Part shown: positions 28,601 to 54,850 of the stretch, piece after piece
Layout: every line of letters begins with the position of its first letter
How positions within the stretch are numbered: position 1 is the first letter of the stretch
Source: Tridacna crocea
Lineage: Eukaryota > Mollusca > Bivalvia > Cardiida > Cardiidae
DNA length: 64,000 nt
Direction: 5' to 3'
Assembly (NCBI GenBank): GCA_943736015.1
Contig: OX031062.1
Location: 29,857,462-29,921,461 of the forward strand
Notes under the pieces: generated by a model
The model's database searches: none
The model's input: only the letters and a program-made list of their open reading frames with translations
Told to the model about the DNA's origin: nothing
Translations under genes and position numbers: made by a program

Positions 28601-31600
28601 TTACATTTTGAAAACAGAATCACTCCCTCTAACTGGAGCTATGCACTTGCAAAACAACTGCATTGGAAAAGTAAAACAATAGTTGCGAACTGTTGTTCTA
28701 GTCTTGCTGTACATTTTTTTTGCCAGCAACTTGAACTTTGGCATATTGCACTATAAGACATCGGTTCATAATAGTATCTATACATTCTTTTTAAGTGGTA
28801 TTAACTCTACCAAACAACAAAATTTTGGTCAAGTCCAAATTGACTGCATTTGCAGATGACAAAACAGATGTTACTCAGAAAATGAAATCTGATTTGCGAA
28901 GGGTAGAAAACATGGTGGGAAAAGGAGAAAATGGTAACAAGCATTTCCTTTTTTTCCACACTGCATTTTAATTCCTGCATTGTTTATTTTTAGCTGCTTG
29001 TGTGCCTTTAACTCTTTAAAGAATAACGAAGTGTTAAATTCATCAACTTTAACCCTTTCCCAAACAGCAAATTTTGGACCAGACCAAATTGAAAGCATAT
29101 TTGCTGGTGACTTATTAACAGTTGCTAAAAAGATGATTCTTCTATATGACAGGGTAGAAAACAGTATGGGAAAAGGAGAAAATGCTGGTTACCAGCATTT
29201 TCTCCTTTTCCCACAGTGTTTTCAAAAGGCTTCTATTCCTGACCTGTAAAAACCAGGGATTGTTTTGGAAAGGGTTAAACATACATGTATTTGAAGGAAA
29301 CAAAAATAGAAAAATGGATGACTTTCATCTCTGAAAAAGTAGAAGACTTCGTGGGAAAAGGAGAAAATGCTGGTTATCAATATTTCTCTTTTTTTTTTCC
29401 TTTTCCTATGATGTTTTTTGAAAGCTGGTATTTATTAAATCTTTAGGGCTCTCAAACACAGAATTGTCCAGTACATGGTAAAACAATGAGAGAGACAAAA
29501 AATAAATGTCTCATAGTCACATGGCAAAATGCAGTCACCCTTACTGTTCACAAAACAAGACAGTTTTACATTAAAATGTTGTCCAGATTAAGTTTTATGG
29601 ACAAGAAATTAAGTGTTATTTGATTGATTAAATTTGGTTCTGGAAAGAGAGGGAAACATTGTATAAAAAGGAGAAAACACTACTTACCAGCATTTTCTCC
29701 TTTCTCAGCAATGTTTTCAAAAGTTTTTTCCTCACCATTGTTTAACAAAGTACATGTAATTGTGTGTTTATGGAAAGAGAGGGAAATATTCTGAAAAAAG
29801 GAGAACATGCTACTTACCAACAATTTCTCCTTTCTCAAAAATGTTTTCAAAAGTTTTTCTCCTCAGCATTGTTTTAGTGTGGTAAAGATTAACCCATTAC
29901 CACATAATCCCTAATTTTGACGACCCTGAGAAAGAAGCCTTTAGAAAACTTTGTGGGAAAAGGAGAAAATGCTGATAACCAGAATTTTCTCCTTTTCCCA
30001 CATTGTTTTGTACCCTTTTCTACCCATCACTAAACAAACTTCAAAATTTTATCACTTGTCGTCTGCATATGCTTTCAATTTGGACAAGTCAAAACTTGTT
30101 GTTTGGTAATGAGTTAACCCTTTACCACATGACAAGATTTTAGACCTGTTCAAATTGAAACTATTTGCTTATGACAGTTTCAATGTGGCTCATATGAAAT
30201 GATTTTTCTTTGAAAGGCAAGAAAATATTGTGGGAAAAGGAGAAAATGCTGGTAACCAGCATTTTCTCCCTTTCCCACAATATTTTCAAAAGCCTTCTCT
30301 TTCATGGCTGTTAAAAGTTGGGATTGTGTGGTAAAAGGTTAAGAATGTGCTATAACCTTTCATCTATCTACTACAGGACTTGGTGTTTGCTCTGATCATA
30401 GCCAACAGTCAACTGGTGACACTTGTTAGAATGAAGAAATACTACTTACACCCAATGGACCTACACATTATCATCAATTTGATCAATGCCGCAGAGTCTT
30501 TCAAGGCAGCCGAGTCTTGGACACCCATTTGTTTACCAAAGTTTGATTCCAGGTTGGACATTTATATGTAACTTAATCTTTTATCACACAGTGACGAATT
30601 TTAACGCCCTTGAGGAAGAAGCCTTTTAAAAACACTGTTGGAAAAGGAGAAAATGCTGGTTACCAGCATTTTCTCCTTTTCCAACAGTGTTTTCTACCCT
30701 ATCAGGGTCAAAATTCATTGAGTCACATTTAAATTGTTGTCTGCAAATGCTTTCAATTTGGACAAGGTCAAAATTTTGTCACCTGGTAAAGAGTTAACCC
30801 TCAACAACGCAACCCTGACTGTTAACGCTTCTTCAGAAGACAGCCATTGGAAGCAATGTAGGAAACGGGGAAAATGCTGGGAACAAGCATTTCCTCCTTT
30901 CGCCTGCAATGTTTTCTACTCTGACAACATGGACTTTCATTTTTTAACTCTTTACCACACAATGATGACTTTTAACCACCTTGACAAAAAGGCCTTTTGA
31001 AAACATTGTGGAAAAAGGAGAAAATGCTTGTAACCAGCATTTTCTCCTTTTTTCCACAAAGTTTTCGACCATCAAAAAGAAAAAATTGCGTCATTTGGGC
31101 AACTATGAAATTGTCGTCTGCAAGGGCTTTTAATTTGGATAGGTCTAAAATTTTGCCGTGTGGTAAAGGGTTAAGCCACATTTATTTTGACACCTCTATA
31201 ATGCCTCGAATGGGACAAATCTAATATGTTTTGGTTTGGTAACAGCATTTTTTCCTTTTCCCACGGTGTTTTATAGTCTTTCAAAGACAGAATATTTGAG
31301 TAACTGTTATGTTGTCCTCTGCTTTCAATGTGGATAAGTAAAAAAATGTTGTTTGCGAAAGAGCAAAGTTGTATGTCAGTGAAAGTTGGGCAATAGTCTT
31401 CATTTGTCTGATTTTGCACACAATAACAATTGTGGGAAAAGGAGAAAATGCAGGTTACCTGCATTTTCTCTTTTTCCTAAAATGTTTTCAAAGGCTTTCT
31501 TTCTCAAGGTCGTTAAAAGTCGGGATTGTGTGGTAAAGGTTTAACATATAAATCTGCGTGCATAACTTAGCCAATTATTTGATGTACCATATGTTTTGAT

Positions 31601-34600
31601 AATTCTCTGATGGATTTCTTTATCGGAAGGCAATGGCTTAGCTTTTTACCACACAATGCCGACTTTAGATGTTCCTGGAAAAGAAGCCTTAAATAGGCTT
31701 TTGAAAACATTGTGGGGAAAGAAGAAAACACTGGTAACCAGCATTTATCTTTTTCCCACAATGTTCAGTTGGTAATATACGTGGAGTTGCTGGTTAACTC
31801 ATTACCAAACAACAATATTTTAGGCTTGTCCAAATGGAAAGCATTTGCAGACGACAAAATAAAAGTGACTGAAATTTTGAAATTGGTTTTATGAAGAGTA
31901 GAAAACATTGTGGGAATAAGGAGAAAATCCTGGTTACCAGCATTGTCTCCTTTTCCTACAATGTTTTCAAAAGACTTAGTAGAATAGAAAATGAGTTGAA
32001 CACATTCTTACATGTACAAATAAACTTAATAATTTCAGTGGTTTTTTACAAGCACATATATCCTACCTAGATGAAGAATGTCAGACATGTTTATTACTGT
32101 TGTCTGTAGACAGGGATTCCTTCTTTGCTCTCTCAGATTGTAGGAACAGAATAAAAGAGGTAAGTGGTCTATGGTTTTGTGGATGAAAGGCTACCAAAAA
32201 ACAAAGTACAACAGGGCCACTACATTACCTCTACATTTTGTTAGAAAAAGTCAAACTAAAAATTGTAATTCAAGCAAGGTTCTGGGAATAAAAGGGAGTG
32301 AAGAATGATATTAAACAGACTTTGCTGATTTTAACTTATTAACAAACGACAATATTCGGGGCCTGTCCAAATTGAAAGCTTTTGCAGACGACAAAATAAA
32401 GTGACTGAAAATTTGAAACTTGTTTTGTGAAGAGTAGAAAACATCGTGGAGAAAAGGAGAAAATGCTGGTTACCAGGATTATCTCCTTTTCCGACAATGT
32501 TTTCAAAAGGCTCCTGTCACAAGGTCGTCAAAATTAGGGATTTTGTGGTTATGGGTTAAACATTTTATCTTTTGAAACATCACCATTCTGTGATACATTA
32601 TATGAAAAATAGATTTGCTGGATGGATTTATATCTTGTTTCTCAACTCATAACTGTTTAACAGTGTTTAGCCTTCACCATGTTTTGGAAAGTTTTAACAA
32701 CCCTCAGAAAGAGGCCTTTTGAAAACATTGCAGGAAAAGAAGAAAATTCTGAAAATGCTGGTAAGCAGCATATTTTTCTTTTTCCAAAATGTTTTTATCC
32801 TGTTTCAATTGCAGATTCCATCAGTTTAGCAGCATTTAACTCTTAAGATAAATGTAATTACAGAATTGAATTTTATTTCCAGCTTGGTAGAAAACATTGT
32901 GGGAAAAGGAAAAAATGCTGGTAATCGGGATTTTCTCCTTTTCCCACAATGTTTTCAAAAGGCTTCTATTTCAGGGTCATAAAAACCAGGGATTGTTTGG
33001 TGAAGGGTTAATTTGTCAACTGCCAGTGCTTTCAGTATGTGTAAATATCAAATTTTGTCATCTGGTACATGGTTAAATAGATAAAAGATGTACATTTTTA
33101 GTGAGCAGATAACTTCATTAATTTGCTGTATTATCCAGAATAGCCATGCAAAATACTAAGCAATGAAATATATTATGCATCATATGGCATCGTCTTTGTA
33201 GCCAACTCTTGTTCTGGTCTGTCAATAAGGTAAAATAGCAATACCTTTGCTAGAAACAGGTAAATGAAGCACACAGTTGCTGTTTATGCTAGAACATTTT
33301 ATTATACTTAAGGAAGGGGGAGCATACAGTTGCCACTTTGTCTGTCCATCCATCTGTCTGTCCGCATGTCCATCCATCCAAAGCCATTTCTCCACAACCC
33401 CTGCTTCAAATGGATGAAACTTCACATATGAACTTTTTATGATATAGCAGTGATTATGTTTTTCTGGTTTTCCAATTTCGCTCTTATGTTGTTGCACATG
33501 TATGTTATTTTCACCTTGCATTATTGTTTACTAGGTAAGTGCGCCCAATATGACCTAAGTTATTGACGGGCCTTAAAACGCTATTCATTCATTTGATTCC
33601 AATTTCACTCTGTGTCATGGAAAAAGGTGTTTATTATAAATTTCTCTAGTGACCGGCTATTTATTGACAACCTTCACTTTCCTGAAAAAGACCTGTTTTG
33701 CGAGCATAAACAGTCTACAATGGCTCTTGATTACATGTTGGATAGTGTAAGTCAAAGAGGAGACCATAGGTTCATAGCAGTCAAACTTTGATTTACACTA
33801 ATCCCGACTTTTAAGAACCCTGAGAAAGCTTTTGAAAACATTGTTGGAAAAGGAGTAAATTCTAATAACCAGCATTTTATCCTTTTGCCCGCTATGTTTT
33901 CTACCCTATCAAAGATAGAAATCCTCATTTTAAGACAACTTAAATTGTCATTTGCAAAGGTTTTGAATTTAACCCTGTACCAAACATGACCCTGACATAA
34001 AGGCCTTTCGAAAACATTGTGAGTAAAGGAGAAAATGCTGGTAACCAGCATTTTCTTTTTCCTACAATGTTTTCTTCTCATCCTAAAACACTTTTAAATT
34101 TTTAAGTCACATTATTCTGTCGTTTGCAAATGCTCTCAATCTGGGCTAGTCTAAAATTTTGGTAAAGAGTTAATCAAATTAGAAAAAAGAAAATTGTACC
34201 AGATGCGTAAGATACCTGTATTTTCTTAACTCATATGCCTGTATATAAATATGTATAATAAAGATTTTTATTTTCTGTTTACAGAGGCTTGTAAAATATA
34301 ATGGTCTAAAAGCAATCAGTGATTCACTCAGAAAAGACAGTTATAACATAAAAAACTGCGGGATTTCTGATCTCCGACATTTCTTGTATAAAAACAAAAG
34401 TACAGCCCAGTACACCAGTCCAGAGGTGGAGGCGCCATACTTAACTGTAGATCAGAGAGAGCGGCTGTTTGGCCTCTACTATAGTCTACATAATAGAGTA
34501 CATTCCGTGTCCAGACCTTTGAAAATACTCTACCATGTTGGGCAATATGAAGCTGTACTTGGCTGGGTAAGTTCTAGATTTGTGATTTTTAGCTTGGCTT

Positions 34601-37600
34601 TTTTTTTTTTGAGAAAAAAACCAACAAGTTACAATTATTAATTCATTACCAAACAACAAAATTTTGGGTTTGTCCAAATCGAAAGCTTTTGCAGACGATA
34701 AAATAAAAGAGACTGGAAATTTGAAATTTGTTTTATGAAGGGTATAAAACATAGTGGGAAAAGGAGAAAATGCTGGTTACCAGCATTTTCTCCTTTTCCC
34801 ACAATGTTTTCTAAAGGCTTTTTTCTCAAGGGCATCAAAAGTAGGGATCATATGGTAATGGGTTAATGCTCTGGCATTGTCGTTGTGTTTGTAAATTTTG
34901 ACAAATTGTGATATCTCTGTTATTATTTAAGATATTTACCTCAAATTACTGAAGGTATTTACTTCAAAATTTGGACAAGATGTTAGCTATCAAAAGAGGA
35001 ATTCATACAAGGGCAGATAATCATCAAGGACAGGTGTTTTTTACATAGTTGTACCACTTTTTATACGCCCGTCGAAGACGGGACGTATTATGGGATCACC
35101 TGTGGCGGGCGGGCGGGCGTCCGGGCGGGCGGGCGGCGTCCAGTTCTTTGTCCGGAGCATATCTCCAAAACTATACTAGCTAGGGTTATGAAATTTCATG
35201 GGTGGATACATCTCATCGAGGGGGAGTGCAGTGCACAAGAATCATAACTCTTGCTTGCTTAATTTTTGAGTTATTGCCCTTTGTTGTTTTTCATACTTGA
35301 ATTTTGTCCGGAGCATATCTCCAAAACTATAGTAGCTAGGGTTATGAAATTTCATGGCTGGATAGATCTCATCAAGGGGGAGTGCAGTGCACAAGAATCA
35401 TAACTCTTGCTCGCTTAATTTTTGAGTTATTGCCCTTTGTTGTTTTTCATACTTGAATTTTGTCCGGAGCATATCTCCAAAACTATACTAGCTAGGGTTA
35501 TGAAATTTCATGGGTGGATAGATCTCATTGACGGGGAGTGCAGTGCACAAGAATCATAACTCTTGATTGCTTAATTTTTGAGTTATTGTCCTTTGTTTTT
35601 TTTCATACTTGAATTTTGTCCGGAGCCTATCTTCAAAACTATAGTAGCTAGGGTTATGAAATTTCATGGGTGGATAGATCTCACCGAGGGGGAGTGCAGT
35701 GCACAGGAATCATAACTCTTGCTTGCTTAATTTTTGAGTTATTGCCCTTTGTCGTTTTTCATACTTGAATTTTGTCCGGAGCATATCTCCAAAACTATAC
35801 TAGCTAGGGTTATGAAATTTTATGGGTGGATAGATCTCATCGAGGGAGAGTGCAGTGCACACGAATCATAACTCTTGCTCGCTTATTTTTGAGTTATTGC
35901 CCATTGTTGTTTTTCATACTTGAATTATGTCCGGAGCATATCTCCAAAACTATACTAGCTAGGGTTATGAAATTTCATGGCTGGATAGATCTTACCGAGG
36001 GTGTGTGCAGTGCATAAGAATCATAACTCTTGCTTGCTTAATTTTTGAATTATTGCCCTTTGTCGTTTTTCATACTTGATTTTTGTACGGAGCATATCTC
36101 CAAAACTATAGTAGCTAGGGTTATGAAATTTCATGGGTGGATAGATCTCATCCATGGGGAGTGCAGTGCACAGGAATCACAACTCTTGCTTGCTTTATTT
36201 TTGAGTTATTGCCCTTTGTTGTTTTTCATACTTGAATTTTGTCCGGTGCATGCCCCACCTTTACAACTTGGGGTAAGACGGGCATATCTTGCGACAATTT
36301 GCCGCTCTTGTTCAGCTTTGAATTTCCACTGAAAATTAAGTGCTTGCAGCCAAGTTTGGGCACCTGCATGCTGCTGCAGTACTCATGTTGTCTCCTAGGT
36401 CTATGTTCTTGATAAAATGCCAAGTGTTATTCTCAGGAATTTTGTTAATTTTGTTGTTACACAATTTCTGATTGGCTAAACCAAATGGTTTAGCACTGGC
36501 TGGTTTGGCCACTCAGAAATTGTGTTACTCTCTGAATGTAGAATTAGATTTTACAATGCAGTAAACAATGGTTTGTGAGTAGAGTTCCTAGGGGTTCCCA
36601 AGGATACTTAAGGTCCACCATGGGATCCACCTATCTATTCTGAATGTCCACCTGCCCTTTAACCCTTTACAGTACAATGCTGACTTTAAATGAACCTGAG
36701 AAGAAGGGCATTTGAAAACATTGTGGGAAAAGGAGAAAATGCTGGTAAGGAGCATTTTCTTCTTTTCTCACAGTGTTTTCCATACTATCAAAGACAAGTT
36801 CCATTATTGAGGCCACATTTAAATTGTCGTCTGCAAATGCTTTCAAATAAGATGATTCAAAATTTGTCTCATGTAGTAAAGGGTTTAAAGCTGGGACTAT
36901 GTACACCAATCGTTTGTAAGAATATTCTTAGTCACAAATTACATCATGTGAGACACATCCTATTTGTCACCTGCAAATGCTTTCAATTTGGATAAATCTA
37001 AAATGTGTTTGGTAAAGAGTTGGTAATAACTGCAATCCTTCCCTCTTTTTTTAAAAGTATGCGCTGTACTTCAAGACCTGGGTCTGTATTCACCAACCAT
37101 TCTTAAGAATGTTCTTGGTCTTATATTTCAGGATTTCCTGACTGTGAAAGTAACAGAAATTCTGATTGGCTAAACCAAATGGTTTAACCAGTCAGAAGTT
37201 CTGTCAATTTCACATTGACAAAATTCTGAAGAATAGGCCTGAAAATGTTATGAAGAATGGTTGGTGATGTTAGTCGTAGTTAAAGCTTCTAAGTTAACCT
37301 TTAACCGTAAAACAAAATGTTAGACTTGATAAAGTCTAATACATTTGCAGACGACATTTTAAATGTGGCTCAGATGATGGAATTTGTCTTTGAAAAGGTA
37401 AAATGATATTGTTGTAAAAGGAAAAAAATGCTGGTTATGAGCATTTTCTCTGTTTCCCACAATATTTTTATAAAGGCTTCTTTCTCAGTGTCTTTGAAAC
37501 TTGGGGTTGTTGTGTAAATGGTTGAATTTTATAAGCCTTGCAAAGTTGGTTTGTCCTGACAGAAAGAGCAAGACCACAGCAACTCAAATGAAATTCAAAT

Positions 37601-37769: not shown

Positions 37770-37839
37770 TCCTCGTTGTTACACTGTTTTTGTTGTAGTT
37801 AGGTATTTATTTCTGTAATAACATGATCAATACCGTAAC

Positions 37840-37980
37840 AAAAAAACCCAAGTTTTAATGGTCCTGAGAGAGAATGCTTTTTGAAAACAATGTGAGAAAG
37901 GAGAAAATGCTGGAAACCAGCAGTTTCTCTTTTTCCCACACTGTTTTCTACCTTTATAGAAATAAATTACATTGTTTTAA
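37840..37980 (+). mobile_element. Pal-A MITE, truncated
   Basis: Left flank and palindrome only; holds the candidate AATAAA after MON1. Confidence 0.75.
37961..37966 (+). promoter_or_regulatory. Candidate polyadenylation signal of MON1
   Basis: AATAAA lies 192 bp after the MON1 stop and is the first canonical hexamer seen downstream. It lies inside a truncated Pal-A MITE. Whether it is used is not shown by the sequence. Confidence 0.3.
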
Positions 37981-38203
37981 CCCTTTACCATGCCATCCCT
38001 ACTTTTGAGGACTCTGTGAAAAACACTATTTGAAAACATTATGGGAAAAGGAGAAAATGCTGATAACCAGTAGTTTCTCCTTTTCCCACAATGCTTTATA
38101 CTCTATCAAAAACAAATTTCAATTTTGAGTCCCACTTATTTCATCGTCTGAAAATGCTTTGAATTTGGACCTGTCAAAAATTTGTCGTATGGTAAAAAGT
38201 TAA
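37977..38203 (+). mobile_element. Pal-A MITE, full length
   Basis: TTAACCCTTTACCATGCCAT start; inserted in or next to the previous copy at TTAA. Confidence 0.9.
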
Positions 38204-38463
38204 CTATATTAAAATTTTGTCATATGCCAGTGCTTTCAAGTGGGGCTAAGTTATTTAGTGAAGAGTCAAGTGTGACATGGAAATATGAATTAAATGATTT
38301 GAATTCCATGCCTGTTTGAGTCATAATAACTTACAAAAAAATAGGAAAATGTAGATCCAAGTTCAAGTAGATTGACTAATCCATGCTATCTGATCTTTAC
38401 CCAACATTGTCTGCTAGAACAGCTGAAGTGGTTCTTGGCACTCTGAAGTTAGAGTGGGTATAT

Positions 38464-38692
38464 TTAACTCTTTACCAAACGACAAAACTATTGACTGGTC
38501 CAAATTGAAAACATGTGCAGACAACATATTAAATGTGACTGAAAAATTGAAGTTTGGCTTAGAAAGGGTAGAAAACATTGTGGGAAAAGGAGAAAATGCT
38601 GGTTACCAGCATTTTCTCCTTTTCCTACAATGTTTTCAAAAAGATTTTTTTCCAGGGTCGTTAAAAGTTGGGATTGTGTGGTAAAGAGTTAA
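38464..38692 (-). mobile_element. Pal-A MITE, full length 229 bp
   Basis: TTAACTCTTTACCAAACGAC start and GTGGTAAAGAGTTAA end, close to the consensus. Confidence 0.94.
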
Positions 38693-38912
38693 ACCTTTGC
38701 AACATAATCTAGAGTTATAACAATCGTGAGGAAGGTGTCTTCTGAAAACATTTTGGGGAAATGAGAAAATGGTAGTTAATAGAATTTTCTTCATTTCCTA
38801 CATTTGCTACCCTTTCTCCAACAACTTTTTCCTTTGTGAGCTACATTTAATTTGTTGTAGGCAAATGCTTTTATTCGGACATGTCCATAGACTTTGTCAT
38901 GTAAAAAGGGGC
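38689..38912 (+). mobile_element. Pal-A MITE, diverged, chained
   Basis: Shares TTAA with the previous copy; the palindrome has decayed. Confidence 0.75.
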
Positions 38913-38929
38913 CATCTCTAAACTGCAAC

Positions 38930-39245
38930 AAATGTCAACCCTGGTCAACCTGGGCGAATTGTGCAAGCTCACCAGAGTCAATGCTTTTGCTTTTGTTTTA
39001 ATTATGAAAAGTGGTCATTCTACCTTACCATACAATCATTTATTGAACTTTCAACTTAAACTGACCTGCACTATCTTTGATCAGTTTTCATCTAAATGAT
39101 ACACAGGTATCCCAGATGGTCCCTTTTTGTGCGTCAGGTCACAATTGTGTGTGTTGTTTTGATTTATTTTGTGACAACTTGTTAGACAAATTTCACCTAA
39201 AAAGCGCAGTCATGCATTTTCTAGTTTTTCCCAGTGCTGTCATTC
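38930..39245 (+). repeat. Dispersed repeat, copy 1
   Basis: AGTGGTCATTCTACCTTACC, CTTAAACTGACCTGC and TTTTCATCTAA blocks recur inverted at 60935-61232. Confidence 0.7.
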
Positions 39246-39269
39246 CATTGTGTAAATGAAAAATTACCA

Positions 39270-39496: not shown

Positions 39497-39499
39497 AGT

Positions 39500-40120: not shown

Positions 40121-40124
40121 TTCT

Positions 40125-40807: not shown

Positions 40808-41037
40808 TTAACCCATTACCACACAATCCCTATTTTTGACGCCCTTGAGAAAGAAGCCTGTAGAAAACATTGTGGGAAAAGGAGAAAATGCTGGTAACCA
40901 GCATTTTCTCCTTTTCCCACAATGTTTTCTAACCTTCACTAAACAAATTTCAAATTTTCAGTCACTTTTATTTTGTCGTCTGCAAATGCTTTGGATTTGG
41001 ACTAGTCTAAAATTTTCTCCAGTGGTAAAGAGCTTAA
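40808..41037 (+). mobile_element. Pal-A MITE, full length
   Basis: Perfect 67-bp palindrome around GGTAACC; TTAACCCATTACCACACAAT start. Confidence 0.93.
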
Positions 41038-41386: not shown

Positions 41387-41614
41387 TTAACCCTTTCCCA
41401 AACAAGCCCTGGTTTTTACGTGTCTGCAGTAAAAGTCTTTTGAAAACACTGTGGGAAAAGGAGAAATTGCTCGTAACGAGCAATTTCTCCTTCTCCCACA
41501 GTGTTTTCTACCCTTCTTGAGAACTTTCTGCCATTTTCTCCTAATCAAAAATTGTCATCTGCAAACTCTTTTGGTTTGGAAGAGTCCAAAATTTGCCGTT
41601 TAGGAAAGGGTTAA
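41387..41614 (+). mobile_element. Pal-A MITE, TTGCTCGT-loop subtype
   Basis: Palindrome loop is AATTGCTCGTAACGAGCAAT, changed in both arms relative to AATGCTGG. Shares TTAA with the next copy. Confidence 0.92.
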
Positions 41615-41999
41615 CTCTTTACCAAACGATAAAAAAGTTTAGACTGGTCCAAATTCAGAGCATTTGTAGACGACAAATTAGATGTGACTCAAAAATTGCA
41701 TTTTGTTTCCTGCAAGGTAGAAAACAGTGGGAAAAGGAGAAAATGCTGGTTACCAGCATTTTCTCCTTTTCCTACAATGTTTTCAGAAGGCTTCATTCTA
41801 AGGGTTATTAAAAGTCAAAAGAGCACTTTCAGATGACAAACATAACTCAGAAATTGAATTTTGTTTCCTGCAAGGTAGAAAACATGGTGGGAAAAGGAGA
41901 AAATACTGGTTACCAGTATTTTCTCCTTTTCCTAAAATGTTTTCAAAGACTTTCTTTCTTAGGGTTGTTAAAAGTTAAGATTGTATGGTAAAGAATTAA
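41611..41999 (-). mobile_element. Pal-A MITE with internal partial duplication
   Basis: Two palindromes in one element; the second reads AATACTGGTTACCAGTATT, an arm-matched change. About 180 bp are repeated. Confidence 0.85.
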
Positions 42000-43303: not shown

Positions 43304-43532
43304 CTTAACTCTTTCTCAAACATCAAATTTTAGACTCTTCCAAACTCAAAGAGTTTGCAGACGACAATTTCAAATTTGATAAAAATGGCAGAAAGTTCTC
43401 CAAGTGGGTAGAAAACACTGTGGAAAAAGGAGAAATTGCTCGCTACGAGCAATTTCTCCTTTTCCCATAGTGCTTTTAAAAGGCTTGTATTGCAGACACG
43501 TAAAAACAAGGGCTTGTTTGGAAGAGGATTAA
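43304..43532 (-). mobile_element. Pal-A MITE, TTGCTCGC-loop subtype
   Basis: Loop AATTGCTCGCTACGAGCAAT; 229 bp; ends GGATTAA. Confidence 0.92.
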
Positions 43533-44072: not shown

Positions 44073-44232
44073 TAAAGAGGACATCCCAAGGAACATTCCT
44101 GCTAAGTTTGGTCCAAATTGGCTCAGCGGTTTAGGAGGAGTTGATGTTTAAAGAATTGTTGACGACGCACGACGGACACCCAGTGACCCTAAAAGCTCCC
44201 CTTGAGCACATTGTGCTCAGATGAGCTAAAAA
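44073..44232 (+). repeat. End fragment of a dispersed element with terminal hairpin
   Basis: GACGACGCACGACGGACACC is followed by the hairpin TTGAGCACATTGTGCTCA and GAGCTAAAA. Similar ends cap the 166-bp-unit elements. Confidence 0.6.
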
Positions 44233-44485
44233 TGTTGGTTTAGCAGTATTTCTCCTCTTCCCTCCCCAGCGTATTAAAACATCTTTTTTGGGTTTATTAA
44301 TTGATGGGAGCTTTTTGGTAATATGGAAGTTTCGTTGTGGGTAGGTACTGCAAACTCTATACCCCATGACACACAGGTGAATGGTAAAATCAATTTATTT
44401 TGGAATGGGAGATCATAGTAACTCAACATCATTTCAATTATATCGCAGGGGCATGTGCACCTATCCATTCTCTCCTGAAGTTTCT

Positions 44486-44695
44486 TTAACCCTTTAAGAC
44501 AAAATGACGACTTTAACACTAATGAAAGAGAAAGCTTCTGAAAACATTGTGGGAAAAGGAGAAAATGCTGGTTACCAGCATTTTCTCCTTTTCCCATAAT
44601 GTTTTCTACTCTCTCAGATAAAGAAACATTTGATATGAGCCATACTAAAACTGTCATCTGCAAATGCTTTCAATTCAGACTTGCAATATTTTTTT
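44486..44695 (+). mobile_element. Pal-A MITE, right end eroded
   Basis: Near-perfect palindrome; the tail ends in CAATTCAGACTTG without TTAA. Confidence 0.85.
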
Positions 44696-44831
44696 CCAAG
44701 CCACATGCACATACAACATTACTGAAATAATGACCAGCGATGACAGAGGAGTTAATTCTGACACAATGACTAGCATCAATCCAGGAAAAGAAATTCACCA
44801 AGATGGGGAATTTTGAATCAGCAACCCCAGA

Positions 44832-45039
44832 GATCCACATTCACCAACCATTCTTAAGAATATTTTAACTCACATTCTCAAAGATTTTCTATATTTTTTT
44901 CTACATTTGAAAGTAACACAACTTCTGATTGGCTTAACCAGCTGGTTTAGCCAATCAGAAGTTATGTAACTTTCAAGAGAAAATTCTGTATAATAAGACT
45001 CAGAATCTCTCAAGAGAAAAAGATGAATACAGACCCTGG
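44832..45039. mobile_element. Pal-D foldback MITE
   Basis: Centre CTTCTGATTGGCTTAACCAG with its complement; ends TTCACCAACCATTCTTAAG and GAATACAGACCCTGG. Confidence 0.82.
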
Positions 45040-45555
45040 TTTCAAGCCCTGTTTGCTACTGAACTACCAGGCCTGCCAACCACAAGATACAATACAGCCT
45101 CCACCATGGCTGATGGATTACACAAGGAACTCGATTGGCATTAAAATAATTTATTTTATTATTTTTTAATACATAATGGAGAAATAAAAAAAAAGAACAT
45201 TTCTATTACATTAGCATGACAACCCAAACAAAAAACAACAACTGTCAGTCATGAACATACAATCCTAACTAATATATCTATCTATAATCAAATGTTTAAG
45301 ATTGTATCTAATCTAAATTAAGTAAAAATGAGTAATGATCTGCGAAAAGGTGGTTTAATGCATATGTTAAAAAATTTCGAGCCACATCAGCCTGCACCAG
45401 CTGACAATGGTAAAAAGTTTTTGCTATGGAAAAATTATCTGCATGGCTAAGTCCCATTCTACCTCTATGATTCAGTCTGCTATGAGGAAAGTAAGTTTTA
45501 TGGAATCATAATAATGTTTTAACTTTGCTCAGTATAATGCACTAAAAAGTTGCCC

Positions 45556-45930
45556 CGTTATCCCTTTACCCCATAAGGCATTTCTATGGTATCTTTAACC
45601 CTTAAAGCGCTGGAACCGACTTAACTTGTTTTTGTGGATAGTGTAGATCAAGATCAGACTGCACAGAATATGCAGTCTGATCTTAGATCTACATTGTCCA
45701 CTATTTTGTTACATATTCTGGAAAAGAAAAAACTTGGTACAGAAATATATCAGATGATTTTCCTGTTTAAAAATGTCTCTTGTTTTAATTCAGCACTTTA
45801 AGGGCTAATTGACCCTAAATAACAGCATAGAAAACATTGTGACAAAAGGTGAAATTGCTCGTCACGAGCAATTTCACCTTTTGTAACAATGTTTTCCACG
45901 AGTATCTATGGAGTAAAAATCAGATATATG
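45556..45930 (-). mobile_element. Pal-B MITE split by Pal-C
   Basis: Starts CCCTTTACCCCATAAGGCAT; the Pal-C copy 45595-45812 sits at its internal TTAA. It continues CCCTAAATAACAGCA with an internal deletion, then palindrome 45827-45893 (one mismatch). Confidence 0.85.
45595..45812 (+). mobile_element. Pal-C MITE, full length 218 bp
   Basis: TTAACCCTTAAAGCGCTGGA start, CAGCACTTTAAGGGCTAA end, central palindrome GATCAGACTGCA...TGCAGTCTGATC; TTAA left and TTGA right flank. Confidence 0.88.
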
Positions 45931-46135
45931 TATATCCACTATATATCCACCTTAGCAAACATACCTTTGTGTCTCGACTCATCAATGGTTAAACTTTAAA
46001 ATTCCTAGCCACATTGCCATGTGTAACCATATGGCAAAAGAAGAAATCAGTGTTGTTGAATTTCTCCTTCAATGACTACAATGTTTTCAAAAATAAAAAA
46101 AAGATAATGAAGGTAATCAGTTACATAAAATGAAA

Positions 46136-46360
46136 TTAACCCTTTAACAAACAATCCTGTATTCAATAATTCCATGGAAAGGGTGATTGAAAACAATATG
46201 GGAAAAGGAGAAAATGCTGTTACCCAGCATTTTTTCCTTTTCCCACAATATTTTCTATCTATTCAGGGATCTAATCGTGATTAGATTTAAATGAACTTGT
46301 TGTCTGAACATGCCTTTATTTGTACAAGTCTACAGTTTTGTTGTGTGGTAAAGAGGTTAA
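46136..46360 (+). mobile_element. Pal-A MITE, full length
   Basis: Flanks diverged, palindrome loop GCTGTTACCCAGC; TTAA at both ends. Confidence 0.87.
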
Positions 46361-46426
46361 GTAAATTAAAATTCAATGATCTCTACCTTCAGTTTAAAAT
46401 CTACAACAAATGAAATAGAAGATAGA

Positions 46427-46878
46427 ACACGGCGGGGAATCACGTGACACAACAACAACAAGAATGACCGTTATTTGAAAAAATTCCCCGGCTTCAGGTA
46501 AGAAAATCTTCAATAATTCCGTTAATACATGACCGATTGGAACTTGGTTTAAAGCAGAGAAAGGGGAAGAACTCCAGGGATTTGCTTGATGTGTTAGATT
46601 TTTTTAAACAACACCTGATAAAAAAGTTATTGACGAGCAAACAAATTTTTTACCCTGGATAATTTGTTTGCTCGTCAATAACTTTTTTATCAGGTGTTGT
46701 TTAAAAAATCTAACACATCAAGCAAATCCCTGGAGTCCTTCCGCCTTCTCTGCTTCAAACCAAATTCCAATCGGTCACATATTAATGGAATTATTTAAGA
46801 TTTTCTTATCTGAAGTTGGGGAATTTTTTTCAAATAACGGTCATTGTTGTTGTTGAGTCGCGTGATTCCTCGCCGTGT
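46427..46878. mobile_element. 452-bp foldback element
   Basis: Two arms of about 215 bp, near-identical reverse complements, meet around a short loop at 46645-46660. Ends read ACACGGCGGGGAATCACG and its complement CGTGATTCCTCGCCGTGT. A target duplication is not clear. A palindrome this long and little diverged suggests recent origin. Confidence 0.85.
46655..46662. other. Loop of the 452-bp foldback
   Basis: The short unpaired centre (ACCCTGGA) between the two long arms. Confidence 0.5.
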
Positions 46879-46913
46879 AGAAGGAGGCTAATTATAATGA
46901 TTAAGGACTTCAG

Positions 46914-47142
46914 TTAACCCATTACCACACAATCCCTACTTTTGATGCCCCGGAGAAAGAAGCCTTTTGAAAACACTGTAGGAAAACGAGAAAATGCTGG
47001 TAACCAGCATTTTCTCCTTTTCCCACAGTGTTTTCTACCCTTTCCAGAACAAATTTCAATTTTTCAGTCACCTTTATTTTGTCGTCTGCAAATCCTTTCA
47101 ATTTGAATCAGTCTAAAATTTTGTCGTGTGGGAAAGAGTTAA
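46914..47142 (+). mobile_element. Pal-A MITE, full length 229 bp
   Basis: CACTGTAGG/CCCACAGTG partly arm-matched; close relative of the copy at 27515. Confidence 0.93.
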
Positions 47143-47385
47143 GAAAATGAAACACATTAAAGTTTTGTATGACAACATAAAATGTTTTCTTCGAGCATAT
47201 ATCAAAAGAATTTATGAAAGTGAGCCATTGAGTATTGAAAATAGAATCTAGACAGGACATACAATGAGATCCAAAATATTGCTGAGATTTCTTATCTAGT
47301 TCCTACATGTACATAGAAGCCTTCACACAGTGGATGTGGAAATGGAGAGTACGAATTACAAGTATTTTGTTTTTCGCAGATGTTT

Positions 47386-47613
47386 TTAAATCTTTACCAA
47401 ACAACAAAATTATAGACTGGTCCAAATTGAAAGCATTTGCAGACGACAAAATGAATGTGATGAAAGAAATGATATTTGTTTAGGAAGGGAAGAAAAAATT
47501 GTGGGAAAAGGAGAAAATGCTGGTTACCAGCATTTTCTCCTTTTCCCACACTGTTTTCAAAAGCCTTCTCCTACAAGGTCGTTAAAACATGGGACTGTGT
47601 GGTAATGGGTTAA
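47386..47613 (-). mobile_element. Pal-A MITE, full length
   Basis: Good palindrome; TTAAATCTTTACCAAACAAC start. Confidence 0.92.
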
Positions 47614-47619
47614 AACAAA

Positions 47620-47960
47620 ACCAGTAGACACTACAGACACCTTGGTGCCAAAGAAACACGAATGCTTGTGAGAGGCAATATCTCCTCTTGCCACATTGTT
47701 TTCACTTGAACTCAAGGTGCAACTATTTACCGGACGACAAAGGTTTTGACCTGTCCAAATGGAAGCATTTGTACAGAACATGTTTAAAAAGACTTTAAAA
47801 AGAAATTAATTAAGGTTACCTTTCTTACATTTTTACAATCCAATGTTCCATTAAGCCTGGTGAAAGGGTATTTGCAAACATTTCGGGAAAGGAAAACATG
47901 TAAGCTGTATTTTCTTCCACAATTTCACAAGCATGTTTGCCTTTTCCCACAATGCTTTTA
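47620..47960. mobile_element. Decayed Pal-A remnants
   Basis: Fragments such as CGGACGACAAAGG with GTCCAAATGGAAGCATTTG, and CTTTTCCCACAATGCTTTT. Confidence 0.45.
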
Positions 47961-48364
47961 GCCTGTCATTTCAGGCACAAAACTTTATCATGTAGCAGCG
48001 AATAGACAGGTTTAACTCCCCAATGACAACATAATCATTATAACATTTGCAATTATACACTATTCTTAAATATACATAACTCTATGTACAAACCAAATTA
48101 TTCACATCATCAACACAATATTTCATACAGCTGGTACAAAAATGTAAATAAATTGCTCAACAACAAAGTTTACAATATATTAAAAAATGTGATTATAAGA
48201 TATAATTATGAAACAAAGACAAAATAGTACATTTGCTATTGCAATTGTTCAAAATACTGGCCCAGTACCCTTGTTTTAAAGGAACAATAATATTCCAGAT
48301 CCATACATTCATTCACAACAATATTTCTTGCAGAAGTATACAACTTTTTTAAACTTTTTAACTA
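47961..48364. other. No feature seen
   Basis: AT-rich intergenic sequence. Confidence 0.5.
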
Positions 48365-48579
48365 GCAATGTAGGTTAAAACCTATCTGAATTGAAAATAT
48401 TTGCAGTTGACAAATAAATAGGACTCAAAAACAGAAATTTCTCTTTTGAAGTGTTGGGAAAAATCAAAGGAGAAGAAGAGAATGCTGGTAATCAGTATTT
48501 TCTCCTTTTCCCACAATTTTTCCATAGTCCATCTTTCTAAGGGTCATTAAAACTTGAGGTTTGTGTGGTCATGGGTTAA
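48365..48579 (-). mobile_element. Pal-A MITE, diverged
   Basis: Right half well kept, ending GTCATGGGTTAA. Confidence 0.75.
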
Positions 48580-48599
48580 GTATTCTAAGGATATACATC

Positions 48600-49032
48600 A
48601 TGATGACATCCCATAGTTCCCTGTGAGAGCCCAACAGAGCATGATATCAAGTGCCTAGAAAAAACTTCCTAAGCCTTTACACCAACTACCTCAACAGCTC
48701 TATGTGATCTCTCTTATCATCAAGAAAACAGTTGGAAAAAGACAATCCTGATTTTCAGTTTCAAACAATTATATGTTTTCTTCAGGGTCACAGAATCATA
48801 AGATGGTCTGCAAAAGGTTATCTGTAGCTGTTTGTGGGTCTTTGAAAAGGAACATGTCCTGCTATCAAAAATAGCTTCAATAAATGCCAGGAAAGTATAA
48901 ACATAAATAAAGGATATCAAGTTAAACATCAGTGAATCTATATATGAGAGGCACACTGGCATAAGGGGGTTTCCAGCATCCGCAGAAATTGTTGACCCAG
49001 GCCAGCCTGCTAAGTCTGTACAACTTGTGTGC
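48600..49032. other. No gene seen
   Basis: Only a small repeat fragment (TTGACCCAGGCCAGCC near 48990). Confidence 0.45.
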
Positions 49033-49260
49033 TTAACCCTTTACTCCATACATACTCATTTCTACTCATTGCTTGTAGGAGTCTTTGGAAAACATAGTGG
49101 CAAAAGGTGAAATTGCTCTTGACGAGCAATTTCACCTTTTGCCACAATGTTTTCTATGCTATCAAAAGGTGTCAATACACATAAGAAACAGCTTCATCCT
49201 TGCTGTTATTTAGGATCAATTTGAGATACCATAGAAATGCCTTATGGGGTTAAGGGTTAA
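49033..49260 (+). mobile_element. Pal-B MITE, full length 228 bp
   Basis: TTAACCCTTTACTCCATACA start, palindrome centred at 49121 (88 bp from the start), end GGGTTAAGGGTTAA. Confidence 0.92.
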
Positions 49261-49485
49261 CTCTTTACTAAACAACCGATCTTTGGAATGGACCAAATTG
49301 AAAGCGTTTGCAGACAACAAAATAAATGCAACTAAAAAATTGAAATATGGTTTAAGAAGGGTTGAAAACATTGTGGGAAAATGAGAAAATGCTGGTAACC
49401 AGCATTTTCTCCTTTTCCCACAATGTTTTCAAAAGGCTTTTTCCTCAGGGTCATTAAAAGTTGTCATAGTGTGGTAAAGGCTTAA
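49257..49485 (-). mobile_element. Pal-A MITE, full length, chained to Pal-B
   Basis: Shares TTAA with Pal-B on the left and with another Pal-A on the right. Confidence 0.92.
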
Positions 49486-49694
49486 CTACTTTTGACGACC
49501 CTGAGAAAGAAGCCTTTAGAAAACATTGTGGGAAAAGGAGAAAATGCTGGTAATCAGCATTTTCTCCTTTGCCCACAATGTTTTTCTTCCTTTTCCAAAA
49601 CAAATTTCAAATAATCAGTCACTTTTATTTTGTCGTCTGCAGATGCTCTCGATTTTGGACTAGCCTCAAATATTCTTGTTTGGTAATGAGTTAA
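49482..49694 (+). mobile_element. Pal-A MITE, third in chain
   Basis: First 16 or so bases missing after TTAA; the rest is intact. Confidence 0.9.
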
Positions 49695-50019
49695 GGCAAT
49701 TTTTTTGCATGATAAAGGACTATTCTATCTGATGCTACAGTTGTTTGTGTTTATAAAAACAAGGATTTTAAGGTAAGTATAATGCACTTCCCCCTTTTTC
49801 CAAAGCATAGCTCTCATGTACACAAAGTCATACAGATATAAAACATAAAAAAAAAACCAATTTCCCACACCTCTTTGCAGAGATCTCTACAAATTGTTGG
49901 ACAATTTTAGCACTAGTAAAACCCATCACCAAATTTTATGTCAAGTTGTTACCATTTACCTTTTTGCAGAATTTATGCAAAGTCGTCTTTTATTAGTTTA
50001 AGGTAAAAATGCAACATTT
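49695..50019. other. No feature seen
   Basis: AT-rich sequence before the 35-bp array. Confidence 0.45.
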
Positions 50020-50335
50020 CTTTATTTTGCTAGAAAATTAACCTAGTAATTTTTTGCTACAAAAATAACACTAGTTTTAGTGCTAATTTGCTAGGAAATA
50101 ACACTACTTCCAGTCGTATTTGGCTAGAAATTAACAATAGTTTTTGTACTATTTTGCTTGAAAATAATCAGTTCTAGCATTATTTTGATAGAATATATTT
50201 CTAGTTCAAAAACTATTTTGCAAGAAAATAACCAGAAATCTACCACTGACAGAAAATATTTCTAGTTCAAGAACTATTTTGCCAGAAAATAACCCTAGTT
50301 CTAGTACTGTTTTGGTAGAAATTAACTCCAGTCTA
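50020..50335. repeat. Degenerate tandem array of about 35 bp
   Basis: Repeated AATAACACTAGTTCTAGTAC / ATTTTGCTAGAA-like units, eight or so, strongly diverged. No coding potential seen. Confidence 0.7.
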
Positions 50336-50394
50336 GATCATGGAGAATAGCATAATCATTGCTTTGAAAACTCATTTGCTTATATTTGCCCTTT

Positions 50395-50612
50395 ACCAGG
50401 TGAGAAAATATCAGACTTATTTATATTGACCACAATTGGAGGCAACATATTACATGTGGCTCAAATGGTGGAAATTGTCTGACAGGGTAGAAAACATTGT
50501 GGGAAAAGAAGAAAATGCTGGTTACCAGTATTTTCACCTATTTCCAAAAAATTTTAAGGAGACTTCTTTTTAAGGGTTTTCAAAATTTAGAAATTTTATG
50601 GTGAAAGGTTTC
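50395..50612 (-). mobile_element. Pal-A MITE, diverged
   Basis: First palindrome arm good, second eroded. Confidence 0.7.
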
Positions 50613-50639
50613 AATATTGTCGTAAAGTGGACATTGCTC

Positions 50640-51355
50640 ATGACCAGTAATTTCATGTTAAGTAAAACAGTTACTGCTCTCAGAAGTGGTCCACTTGAGG
50701 ACAAGAAATTATCCAAGTTTTAGCATGATGATACAGATGGCAATGTGGACAAAAAAAGAGGCAAGCTTAAAGTGAAAAATCTGTGTGTGATGTTATATTG
50801 GGTCTGTATTACTCTATGTAAAGAAACTATTTGGCACTATGTTTTATACTGGCTTATGATTAGTGCTGAAGCTATAAAGGGATTTTCAAGATAGATTTTA
50901 GAGCTGAATGATACAACACTATAGAACTAGAATTTCACTGTAGAGAAACTCAGGAAAATTTCATGGTATATTGCTCTTTATCTGTGGACAATTTACCTGT
51001 TCCTCACCATTTATTTAAAGGTTTTTAACTTCATAAGTATCAAAATATGCCTTAATGCAAGTATTAATGAACAAATTTGAGGTAGCTTCAGAAAATGGCA
51101 TCTGTATAAAATAAAAGATGGGTTCTCCTAAGAACCCAATTACTTGAAGACGTAAAAAAGGTAGCAACAAAATTTTCTCATTTCTCCAAGACACTAACAT
51201 GCACGAGCAGTTTCTCCTCGTGAAGTGTTTTGACAAGTTTGCATTTTATAAAACCTTATTTTTTAACTTATGCTACTTAACATTTATATTCTACAAGCAC
51301 ATTTTTGAAATCTATTCCAGGATGTAATGGATTAACATCTTAATGCAATGTAAAA
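50640..51355. other. No feature seen
   Basis: AT-rich intergenic sequence without recognisable repeats or exons. Confidence 0.45.
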
Positions 51356-51680
51356 ATGAAACTCTTCACCAAAATACAAAATTTTAGAAAAGTTCAAATT
51401 CAAAGCAAACTCTAGATGACAAAATAAATGTGACTCAAAAATTGAAATTTTCTTTGGGACGGATAGAAAAGATTGCGGAAAAAGAGAGAATGTAGGTTGG
51501 AATTGTAAGCATGTGCAGACGACACAATAAATGTAGCTGAAAAATTGAAACTTGTATTGGGAAGGGTAGAAAACACCATGGGAAAAGGAGAAACCAGCAT
51601 TTTCTCCTTTTCCCACAATGTTTTCAGTAGGGTTTTTTCTCAGGGTCGTTAAAAGTCGGGATTGTGTGGTAAAAGGTTAA
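51356..51680 (-). mobile_element. Chimeric Pal-A, two left parts
   Basis: A truncated copy (51356-51500) is followed by a second left flank and a shortened palindrome, ending AAAAGGTTAA. Confidence 0.75.
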
Positions 51681-51907
51681 AAGTCTGGATCATATGGGAT
51701 AGGGTTAATACCTCTAATTTTGCCTGTATGTGAAAATTTCATGTCTGGTGATGATGACATGGAACGGACATTGCACATCACACCCTGAGTGTTGAAATCC
51801 ACACTGACCGTGTGTATGTAACGAGGCATCTCATTGGACGGACTTATCTCTTTATACATAGCTATAAAACACCTGTGGTACCTTTACCTGTGCTACCTGA
51901 CAAAATC

Positions 51908-52140
51908 CGGGCTTGTATTCACAATCCATTCATAACATCTTTCTCAGTCCTAGTCTAAATCCTTTTTCTTAATTTGAATGTAACAACTTTTGACTGGCTA
52001 AACCTGTTAAAAATTACACAACTTCTGATTGGATAAACTAAATAGTTTAGCCTATCATGAGTTGTGTAACTTTAAATTTAGAATATCTTGAAGAATAAGA
52101 CTAAAAATGGTCTTAGAACAGTTGGTAGATACAAACCGTG
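51908..52140. mobile_element. Pal-D foldback MITE
   Basis: Centre ACTTCTGATTGGATAAACTA; a partial duplication of the left core precedes it. Confidence 0.78.
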
Positions 52141-52530
52141 GGCCCCATTTCACAAAAAACATAAAAATATCATATTTTGCTCAAGTCTGCAGACAGACCC
52201 CATTTCTGACTTGAGACAAGTTTTTTAATTTAGATCCATTTTACTTATATTAACAGACTTAGGTAACATTCTCAATTTTTAGACTGGCACAACATTTCAA
52301 ACTCAACTCTGCAAAATAATGAACTCAATCTGTTAAAATGATTTAATTCCATTATTTTATTGAGCCGAGTCTGAAACACTGTGTCAACTTAGAATTTGAG
52401 AATGTTTTTAAGTCTCTTAATGTCAGTGAACTGCATCAGAAATAACAAAGTCAACTTAATTTGAAACACAAGTCTGTAAGCAGAATTCAGCAAAATATGA
52501 GACTTAAGTTTTTCCTGGAAATCAAGCCAT
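52139..52530. repeat. Foldback repeat of about 390 bp
   Basis: ATCATATTTTGCTCAAGTCT near the left is mirrored by AGCAAAATATGAGACTTAAG at the right; imperfect. Confidence 0.55.
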
Positions 52531-52842
52531 GGTGTTCTCTCTAAATTAATCAAATAGCCTTATGTGTGTTTATGTGTTATGGTGTGTTTCCTTTTGCTAT
52601 TACTGAATTTTGTTTTGATTCTTCTATTATTATAGGAAGAAAAAAAAAACAAGAACATTGCATGGAAGAAGAATAATTTCAAAAAGGAGAATAACTGTGT
52701 CAAGACTATTTTGAAGGTTACCTGCCCTTCAAGCCACATCTTGAAATCTATACCTTCAGAATACTATCCAGAAATATGACGTTTTAACACCATGACAATC
52801 CAGAAAATTAAAGTGCTGTGACAATATTCTAACATTTTCCTC

Positions 52843-53077
52843 TTAACTCTTTACCACATGAGAAAATTTTAGACTGGTCCAAATTGGAAGCATTAAATTT
52901 TGCAGACGACAAAATAAAGGTGACTGAAAATTTGAAATTTGTTCTGGGAAGGATAGAAAACCCTGTGGGAAAAGGAGAAAATGCTGGTTACCAGCACTTT
53001 CTCCTTTTCCAACAGTGTTTTCAAAAGGCTTCTTTCTCAGGGGCGTCAAAAGTTGGGATTGTGTAGTATTGGGTTAA
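52843..53077 (-). mobile_element. Pal-A MITE, full length
   Basis: A six-base insertion in the left flank; shares TTAA with the next copy. Confidence 0.9.
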
Positions 53078-53300
53078 CTCTTGACCACATGAGAAAATTT
53101 TAGCCCAGTCTAAATGGAAAGCATGTGCAGACAAAATAAATGTGACTGAAAAATTGAAATTTGCTTTGGGAAGGGTAGAAAACATTGTGGGAAAAGGAGA
53201 AAATAATGGTTACCAGCATTTTTCTGCTTTTCCCACAATGTTTTCTCAAGGCTTCCTTCTCAGGGTTGTCAAAAGTAGGGATTTTGTGGTGAAAGGTTAA
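53074..53300 (-). mobile_element. Pal-A MITE, full length, chained
   Basis: Same orientation as its neighbour; GTGAAAGGTTAA end. Confidence 0.92.
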
Positions 53301-53337
53301 ACAGCCTAGCCAGGAAAAACCTCTGAAAACCAACTGT

Positions 53338-53567
53338 CTAGACCCTTTACCATACAATTCCAGATTTTAACAGCCCTTAGCAAGAAAAGTTTTGAAAACA
53401 TTGTGGGAAAAGAAGAAAATGCTGGTTACCAGCATTTTCTCTTTTTCCCACAATGTTTTCTGCTCTTGCAAGGAAAAAATGTGTCTTTTTTCCACTTTTA
53501 CTTTTTTCGTCCGCATTCGCTTTCAATTAGGACAAGTCTAAAATTTTGTCATTTGGTAAAGAGTAAA
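53338..53567 (+). mobile_element. Pal-A MITE, TTAA flanks eroded
   Basis: Good palindrome with one mismatch (AGAAG/CTCTT); ends ATTTGGTAAAGAGTAAA. Confidence 0.87.
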
Positions 53568-53928
53568 TAGTCTTCAAATTTTTCAACCTTTGAACAAATT
53601 ATATTACAAAATGTTTTCTTTCAGCACTCCCATCCTGTAGACATAACTCTGAGGTGAAGATACAATGTCTGTGTTAATTGCAAATTCAACTATTAAATTT
53701 CAGATCTGCTACATGGCAACTGTTTCCTGATTCCACCAAATACTTTATGAAAGCTGAGTAAATAACAATAAAATGACTTTTAAAAAAAAAATGAATAAAA
53801 TGATGCACTGGCATAAAAGGTTACAAATATTGCAAAAGGCATAGATCTAGTCAAAAAAATAGATAAAATGAAGACTGAAACAGATGAATGGTAATTAAAA
53901 AAAAATAATATGTAAAAACAAATTAAAA

Positions 53929-54245
53929 CCAGAGCTATCACTAAACGTGGTTATACCCCCCAACAGCTCCTTGTCACAAAACAGGTCTTTGTCAAAGAAT
54001 GCAGAATGATTTAGTACAAAAGTAAGAGTTGAAAAAAAAAAAATCAAGGGGAGGTAATTCTGCAACAAAATGCAGCAGGGTCATGAAAATTACACATGCA
54101 TAACTTCATATAGGAACACTATGTAAAATTGAGGTCAGTACCTGAAAAACTGTATTTCCCCAGACAAATTTGTGTCTACAGATAGACTGACAGACAGCCA
54201 TGGTGATTCCATTATACCCGCCTCAACTTCATGTGGGGGGGTAAA
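53929..54245 (+). repeat. Dispersed repeat of about 315 bp
   Basis: Begins AGAGCTATCACTAAACGTGG with CCCCCCAACAGCTCC and ends ATTATACCCGCCTCAACTT, a layout I associate with common bivalve repeats (recalled). Confidence 0.5.
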
Positions 54246-54527
54246 ATAAAAATACAGTGGGTCAATTTCATAAACATGAGATAAATGTTATTTTACACAA
54301 ATTTAAATGTAAAGATAGAATCTTGATAAATAAAATCAAGTTTCTACATTAAAGTACATAACTATAAAACTTTTTTTAAATGATTATAATATCTAAGTTG
54401 TGAAGAATCAGTCTTATATACAAATTGTACAGTTCCTCATGTGTGGATTTAACAATGTAAATATCTAGTCAAAATCTAGTTTCACAAACAAAACACAGAA
54501 TACTACAGTTACAGTAAATGGTCTGTA

Positions 54528-54602
54528 ATATGCCAAAAGGGGCAAAAGGACATTTGCTTAAAGAGTCATTCCGGATCAGTCTGTGAACTCCACACAGACT
54601 AA
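54528..54602. repeat. Short palindromic repeat (GATCAGTCTGTG type)
   Basis: GGATCAGTCTGTG and CACAGACTAATCAG face each other; a related fragment lies at 54893-54960. Confidence 0.5.
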
Positions 54603-54624
54603 TCAGAAACAACACTTTCCATTT

Positions 54625-54850
54625 TTAACTCTTTCCCAAACAACAAATTTTGGACTCTTCCAAATCGAAAGAGTTTGCAGATGACAATTTTAGATTTTGA
54701 GAAAAAGGCAGAAATTTCTCAAAAAGGGTAGAAAACACTGTGGGAAAAGGAGAAATTGCTCGTTACGAGCAATTTCTCCTTTTCCCACAGTGTTTTCAAG
54801 ACTTTTACTGCAGACACGTAAAAACCAGGGCTTGTTTGGGAAAGGGTTAA
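54625..54850 (-). mobile_element. Pal-A MITE with perfect 67-bp palindrome, TTGCTCGT subtype
   Basis: Palindrome 54731-54797 has 33-bp arms with no mismatch and CACTGT/ACAGTG outer variant. Confidence 0.94.

Follow-up and report, generated by a model that had tools for sequence, protein, structure and literature searches.

The nearest published parallel that we found to the element described here is a group of coral miniature inverted-repeat transposable elements (MITEs), the CMITEs of Acropora. The consulted sections of that paper (PMC2872659) describe them as having TTAA target sites, ends of the CC[C/T]T type, with several families starting CCCTTT, and tandem copies. Their internal region of 75 bases is more conserved between families than the terminal inverted repeats (TIRs), and the authors propose a role in transposition for it. 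In piggyBac and piggyBat a palindrome is bound by two cysteine-rich domains (CRDs) of the transposase dimer, according to the sections consulted of PMC11707139. Here we describe an abundant short element with a palindromic core in a window of 64,000 nucleotides (the whole stretch of DNA analysed) from Tridacna crocea, contig OX031062.1, positions 29,857,462 to 29,921,461, belonging to an assembly of 1,048,827,098 bp (1.05 Gb). We consider it likely that the palindrome is a cis-acting signal that selection keeps matched in the transposing source lineages and that decays afterwards.

The element and its palindromic core

The element was modelled over 228 positions, and a profile made from the window copies gave 120 non-overlapping pieces in the 64 kb. 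In the middle, two arms of 33 bp form a palindrome around a one-base centre. The window and a genome sample contained 102 full-span copies, and in 99 of these TTAA stood at each end. For the 12 commonest classes in these copies, the next three letters at the left end included CCC (70), CTC (13), TCC (5) and CCT (4), and those at the right end, read as a TIR, CTC (52), CCC (39) and CTT (4). As far as three letters can be compared with the CC[C/T]T terminal motif, the left ends mostly fit and the right ends were often CTC. Two nested insertions were found, in which a copy flanked by TTAA interrupts another copy; one of them is the following:

30944..31173, + strand, MITE copy inside another copy (30794-30946 and 31172-31242), TTAA at both junctions

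It is a non-autonomous, TTAA-inserting element, probably of the piggyBac type; it has the TTAA target-site duplication, short length and many copies of a piggyBac-type MITE. Among 410 consecutive pairs of pieces, 27 abutted within 2 bp with both members longer than 150 bp. Neighbouring copies with one common TTAA were seen at 27516-27967, 29889-30342 and 49033-49485, and may be compared with the tandem arrays of the coral CMITEs.

The genome sample consisted of 25 loci of 10 kb at round coordinates on contigs C1-C10 (250 kb). The element made up 22.4% of the sampled bases, with 316 pieces in total and 1 to 30 per locus, and extrapolation from these 25 loci suggests about 1.3 million pieces genome-wide. 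The inner 31-bp palindrome, exact and with any centre base, was found at 191,599 places in the genome. One MITE group that takes up about a fifth of a genome, as estimated from the 25 loci, offers a natural experiment of very large size on the evolution of palindromic DNA. The element was not named in what our literature searches returned, and palindromes were not mentioned in the consulted sections of a paper on bivalve transposons (PMC10294476). It was also unmatched in scans of viral and genome contig collections, which may lack entries for the genome that the window comes from.

The first-pass annotation, made from the letters of the window, had pointed to five places where both arms of the palindrome changed in concert within single copies, and had taken this to indicate arm-to-arm correction or selection for a foldable hairpin. 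Each place was re-read, and all five have the arm changes as described. The copies concerned, and two others for comparison, are:

30573..30796, + strand, MITE copy with the cited palindrome 30629-30693 (pairs 22 G-C>T-A and 26 T-A>C-G)
30629..30693, + strand, core palindrome with perfect 32-bp arms, centre 30661
31428..31544, - strand, truncated MITE copy with the cited palindrome 31432-31486 (pair 4 T-A>A-T; one-sided changes at 22, 24 and elsewhere)
41820..41999, - strand, MITE copy with the cited palindrome 41876-41945 (pair 6 G-C>A-T; one-sided changes at 22, 24 and 25)
54626..54850, - strand, MITE copy of subfamily B with the cited palindrome 54731-54797 (pairs 3, 8 and 26)
55985..56213, - strand, MITE copy of the cited 55983-56214, core centre 56126 (pair 3 G-C>A-T; one-sided changes at 2 and 27)
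40808..41033, + strand, MITE copy with a fully paired consensus core (40861-40931)
46914..47141, + strand, MITE copy with 26:CG paired and 22:A one-sided

The core at 30629-30693 has 32 of 33 pairs, with CACTGTTGG present in both arms, and that at 54731-54797 (centre 54764) has all 33, with CACTGTGGG and TTGCTCGT in both arms. At 41876-41945 there are 30 of 33 pairs, with AATACTGG/CCAGTATT, and at 31432-31486 there are 26 of 33, with GCAGG/CCTGC. In the core of 55983-56214 (31 of 33 pairs) one arm reads GCTAGT and the other GCTAAT, so that one change is paired and the adjacent one is unpaired. The exact 32-base arm of 30629 had 2,443 matches in the genome (arms counted, not copies), with 15 adjacent two-arm pairs among the matches listed; this variant is not a single-copy event.

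Paired changes in subfamilies and one-sided changes in copies

Clustering on spacer sequence alone was done with 239 of 436 pieces and gave five clusters of at least four copies (97 copies). Two of the five differ from the main consensus in the core, subfamily C by pairs 3, 8, 13 and 20 and subfamily B by pairs 3, 8 and 26. All seven of these consensus-level changes are paired and none is broken; they comprise five distinct pairs, with 3 and 8 changed in both subfamilies. The identical seven paired changes were obtained when the cut was loosened to give six clusters with 143 copies. The further B and C copies in the window are:

41387..41613, + strand, subfamily B copy (pairs 3, 8 and 26)
43306..43532, - strand, subfamily B copy (pairs 3, 8 and 26, and further one-sided changes)
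6923..7150, + strand, subfamily C copy (pairs 8, 13 and 20; an unmatched change at 3; spacers that differ from A by about 50%)
49033..49259, + strand, subfamily C copy (pairs 3, 8, 13 and 20)
56862..57089, - strand, subfamily C copy (pairs 2, 3, 8, 13 and 20)

The core is also the most constrained part of the element. Among 45 main-family copies the divergence from the consensus was 5.9% and 5.2% for the two arms, 15.6% for the TIRs and 19.4% for the spacers, that is about three times lower in the core than in TIRs or spacers. For pairwise distances, half of the spacer columns served to set the bins and the other half to measure the distances; the core/spacer ratio was 0.72 in the closest bin and dropped to about 0.40. 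When identical columns served both purposes, the ratio of the closest pairs came out near 1, a value that is biased upward and that we disregard. Group A1 had 30 singletons among 983 core sites and 71 among 1,711 spacer sites, and shared variants numbered 16 and 98, respectively. The constraint thus appears to act mainly in source lineages, perhaps with a lesser effect after insertion. For these lineages, selection for the palindrome or hairpin, as proposed by the annotation, was supported by the seven paired consensus changes and the low divergence of the core.

Individual copies gave a different picture. For the window, 95 of the 120 pieces had enough core to be read; eight B and C copies were set apart, and the 87 main-family cores contained 49 compensated pairs, 33 unmatched doubles and 499 one-sided changes. 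The compensated pairs exceeded the shuffled expectation (22.3 +/- 4.3), and doubles of any kind numbered 82, compared to 52-68 with slid partners. Window and sample together yielded 117 gap-free cores, 104 of them distinct, and these had 39 both-sided cells, compared to 8.6 shuffled and 6-19 slid. However, 31 of the 39 were at columns 8/60, 26/42 and 31/37, which are positions 26, 8 and 3, the subfamily markers, and the remaining eight were scattered across seven pairs. Within the five spacer clusters we counted 195 one-sided changes, 20 paired changes and three unmatched doubles, and within the six looser clusters 355, 25 and seven, respectively. The best main-family set was obtained by keeping 298 of the 436 pieces, of which 269 were main family and 149 had a score of at least 150. 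These 149 copies had 400 one-sided and 31 paired changes, 16 of the latter at position 26. The concerted arm changes first noticed were confirmed, and covariation is above shuffles; one-sided changes nevertheless far outnumber paired ones, and the variants recur in the genome. Arm changes in matching form mostly mark subfamilies whose parent elements stayed matched, and the cited concerted copies are best explained as subfamily members together with near-chance double hits.

Gene conversion or hairpin-templated repair that still acts between the arms of individual resident copies was one of the two causes proposed by the annotation, and paired changes above shuffles in each tested set would agree with it. 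So would two of the 149 best main-family copies, L019:1923-2150 and L014:3416-3643, whose cores are clean except for a single paired change, at pair 20 and pair 2, respectively. The small paired remainder in copies is either real or due to small subfamilies. A genome-wide haplotype test, counted only in cores whose 31-bp background was exact at all other positions, was applied to the variants of 41876 (6A) and 31432 (4A). For 6A there were 156 two-sided places and 6,194 one-sided places (3,116 + 3,078), and for 4A 44 and 3,233 (1,696 + 1,537). Two-sided places were 2.5% and 1.3% of carriers, and 50.1 and 13.6 were expected under independence; left and right one-sided counts were assumed equal in this calculation, and if they are unequal the expected number is lower and the ratio higher. 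Because copies differ in age, a control with non-partner positions was included, for one pair only (6A on one arm and 3A on the other). It gave 230 observed compared to 95.4 predicted from 5,903 one-sided 3A, a factor of 2.41. After this control the paired excess was 1.29x for 6A (156 vs 120.7) and 1.34x for 4A (44 vs 32.9), which corresponds to 0.6% and 0.3% of carriers.

Correction between the arms of resident copies is thus at most slight, and as a general process it was rejected, since one-sided changes dominate and two-sided ones only reach 1.29x and 1.34x of the control. The 400 one-sided against 31 paired changes and the persistence of a one-sided change, 22:A, in 18 window copies argue in the same direction. 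Moreover, unbiased conversion would by our reasoning leave the divergence of the core no lower than that of the spacers. We regard correction in resident copies as very unlikely to explain the matched arms. The annotation had named an outcome that would speak against its own proposal, namely that there are just a few subfamilies and covariation does not continue. This is largely what was found, the slight paired excess being the part that does not agree.

Possible roles of the palindrome

If the symmetric core is a cis-acting signal, it may aid the mobilisation of a few source copies, most likely by being bound symmetrically by a dimer of the transposase or of an accessory protein, or else by being used as an extruded hairpin. 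Selection on the sources would keep the arms matched, so that changes at the lineage level would arrive in pairs, and in uncorrected daughter copies the arms would drift apart. Binding of a palindrome by the two CRDs of a transposase dimer provides a reason for symmetric co-change of the duplex without a hairpin, and a hairpin in mobilisation is the bolder reading of the two. This separates two levels that are easily confused, as pairing would be kept in transposing lineages and lost in resident copies.

Several observations weigh against this proposal. The pooled paired excess in the haplotype test was 1.30x with an interval of 1.08-1.57, which excludes 1 (counting error only) and would also favour correction in resident copies. 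Without position 26, the 149 best copies still had 15 paired changes, compared to 5.9 +/- 2.3 shuffled, next to 387 one-sided changes. Only two subfamilies have consensus changes in the core and two pairs are common to them, which reduces the independent events to between five and seven. The ratio of 0.72 rather than 1 in the closest bin leaves room for some difference after insertion, and core singletons were below spacer singletons also in A2, B and C. Finally, the one-sided 22:A is common and probably inherited, so that a perfect core is not strictly required.

The 22:A change (left-arm GTAGG) was found with an unchanged right arm in the 18 window copies, the mirror change in four, and it was present in 9 of 16 high-scoring 26:CG copies. 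Because the sequence context is symmetric, the imbalance suggests inheritance rather than a hot spot. If it is inherited, a broken pair has been carried through transposition, and correction would then not be efficient even in the sources. This bears on the possibility that the palindrome of source lineages is not selected but re-made in one step, one arm being copied onto the other by hairpin-templated synthesis in excision, replication or repair. The seven paired consensus changes with zero broken intermediates and the B copy at 54731-54797, perfect across 33 bp, are as one-step copying would have them. However, paired 26:CG stands together with unpaired 22:A in those 9 of 16 copies, and copying alone leaves the approximately threefold lower divergence of the core unexplained; we find it doubtful. 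In a related version, which we hold to be unlikely, the palindrome would fold during mobilisation and one arm would be copied onto the other there, and integrated copies would skip that state and decay. If true, this would be a DNA element with a symmetric core that is re-made on moving.

Core segments could also have been exchanged between subfamilies by interlocus gene conversion or recombination, spreading paired blocks such as 26:CG and homogenising the core. The core is indeed more alike than the spacers, and 26:CG is shared by some of the A1 copies, by B and by 30573, which a spacer tree of 76 copies places apart from each other with weak support. However, the branch supports are low and a single origin of 26:CG is possible, and exchange seems rather improbable to us.

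The cited cores fold as hairpins of -20.6 to -38.2 kcal/mol (DNA parameters), and together with the covariation this could point to selection on an RNA hairpin, either a small-RNA precursor or a structured transcript. At A-T pairs G.U was slightly more frequent than A.C (53 vs 42). In contrast, at G-C pairs read in the plus sense A.C exceeded G.U (111 vs 68, 87 copies), which is against wobble tolerance on the plus strand; this count concerns that strand only, and 18 of the 111 are 22:A. Rfam gave no family at gathering score in the window. A plus-sense RNA hairpin is not supported by these results, and we judge RNA selection in general to be highly improbable.

Neighbouring features and known systems

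The window contains several other features.

3614-6615: YqaJ-like recombinase domain (+ strand, open reading frame (ORF) of 168 aa) beside a DDE_Tnp_4/HTH_Tnp_4 transposase (- strand, ORF of 308 aa), a pair that looks like an ISL2EU-type element
9571-9852: tandem array of about 22-bp units TAATACGTGCGCACGTAATA, near-palindromic and CpG-rich
26964-27743: longin-domain exon (Pfam Fuz_longin_1), presumably MON1-type by our own reading of the name; the ORF at 26964 continues into the MITE at 27516
about 30480-30550: apparent later exon, by our reading, with MITEs between it and the longin-domain exon
35147-36251: 156-bp tandem repeat with seven copies and 92% matches, and a 467-bp period as well
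46478-46829: inverted repeat of 130 nt (90%) that encloses a perfect one of 48 nt, apparently a separate foldback element
57132-57742 and 63402-64000: tandem repeats of 165 and 169 bp that look alike and have GACCCC..GGGGC motifs

Compared with known systems, the element resembles the piggyBac superfamily in its TTAA targets and its palindrome. However, the palindromes of piggyBac and piggyBat are about 14-19 bp long and located in the end regions, according to the sections consulted of PMC11707139, whereas the present one is 67 bp and internal. The Kolobok/T2-MITE elements of Xenopus also have a TTAA target, and T2-MITE is predominant and long-lived and has subfamilies, but their ends are AGGRR and not the pyrimidine-rich CCC/CTC found here, and "palindrom-" is absent from the main text of the paper (PMC6004289). 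In chromosome palindromes with arm-to-arm gene conversion the arms are likewise kept alike; these are inverted duplicates on sex chromosomes, as described in the consulted part of PMC3403216, whereas the arms here are 33 bp and drift apart after insertion.

The coral CMITEs share with the present element the TTAA target sites, the tandem copies and an internal region that is less divergent than the TIRs (here 5-6% in the arms compared to 15.6%), a likeness by description. They are about 100 bp long, and the authors put their copy number in A. millepora at about 1,600, whereas the element here has 228 bp and far more copies, and the main text contains neither "palindrom-" nor "hairpin", whereas the conserved core here is a 2 x 33-bp palindrome (PMC2872659). 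Our reading of the core fits the suggestion made for CMITEs that internal sequence matters in transposition, and adds symmetry as its likely key property.

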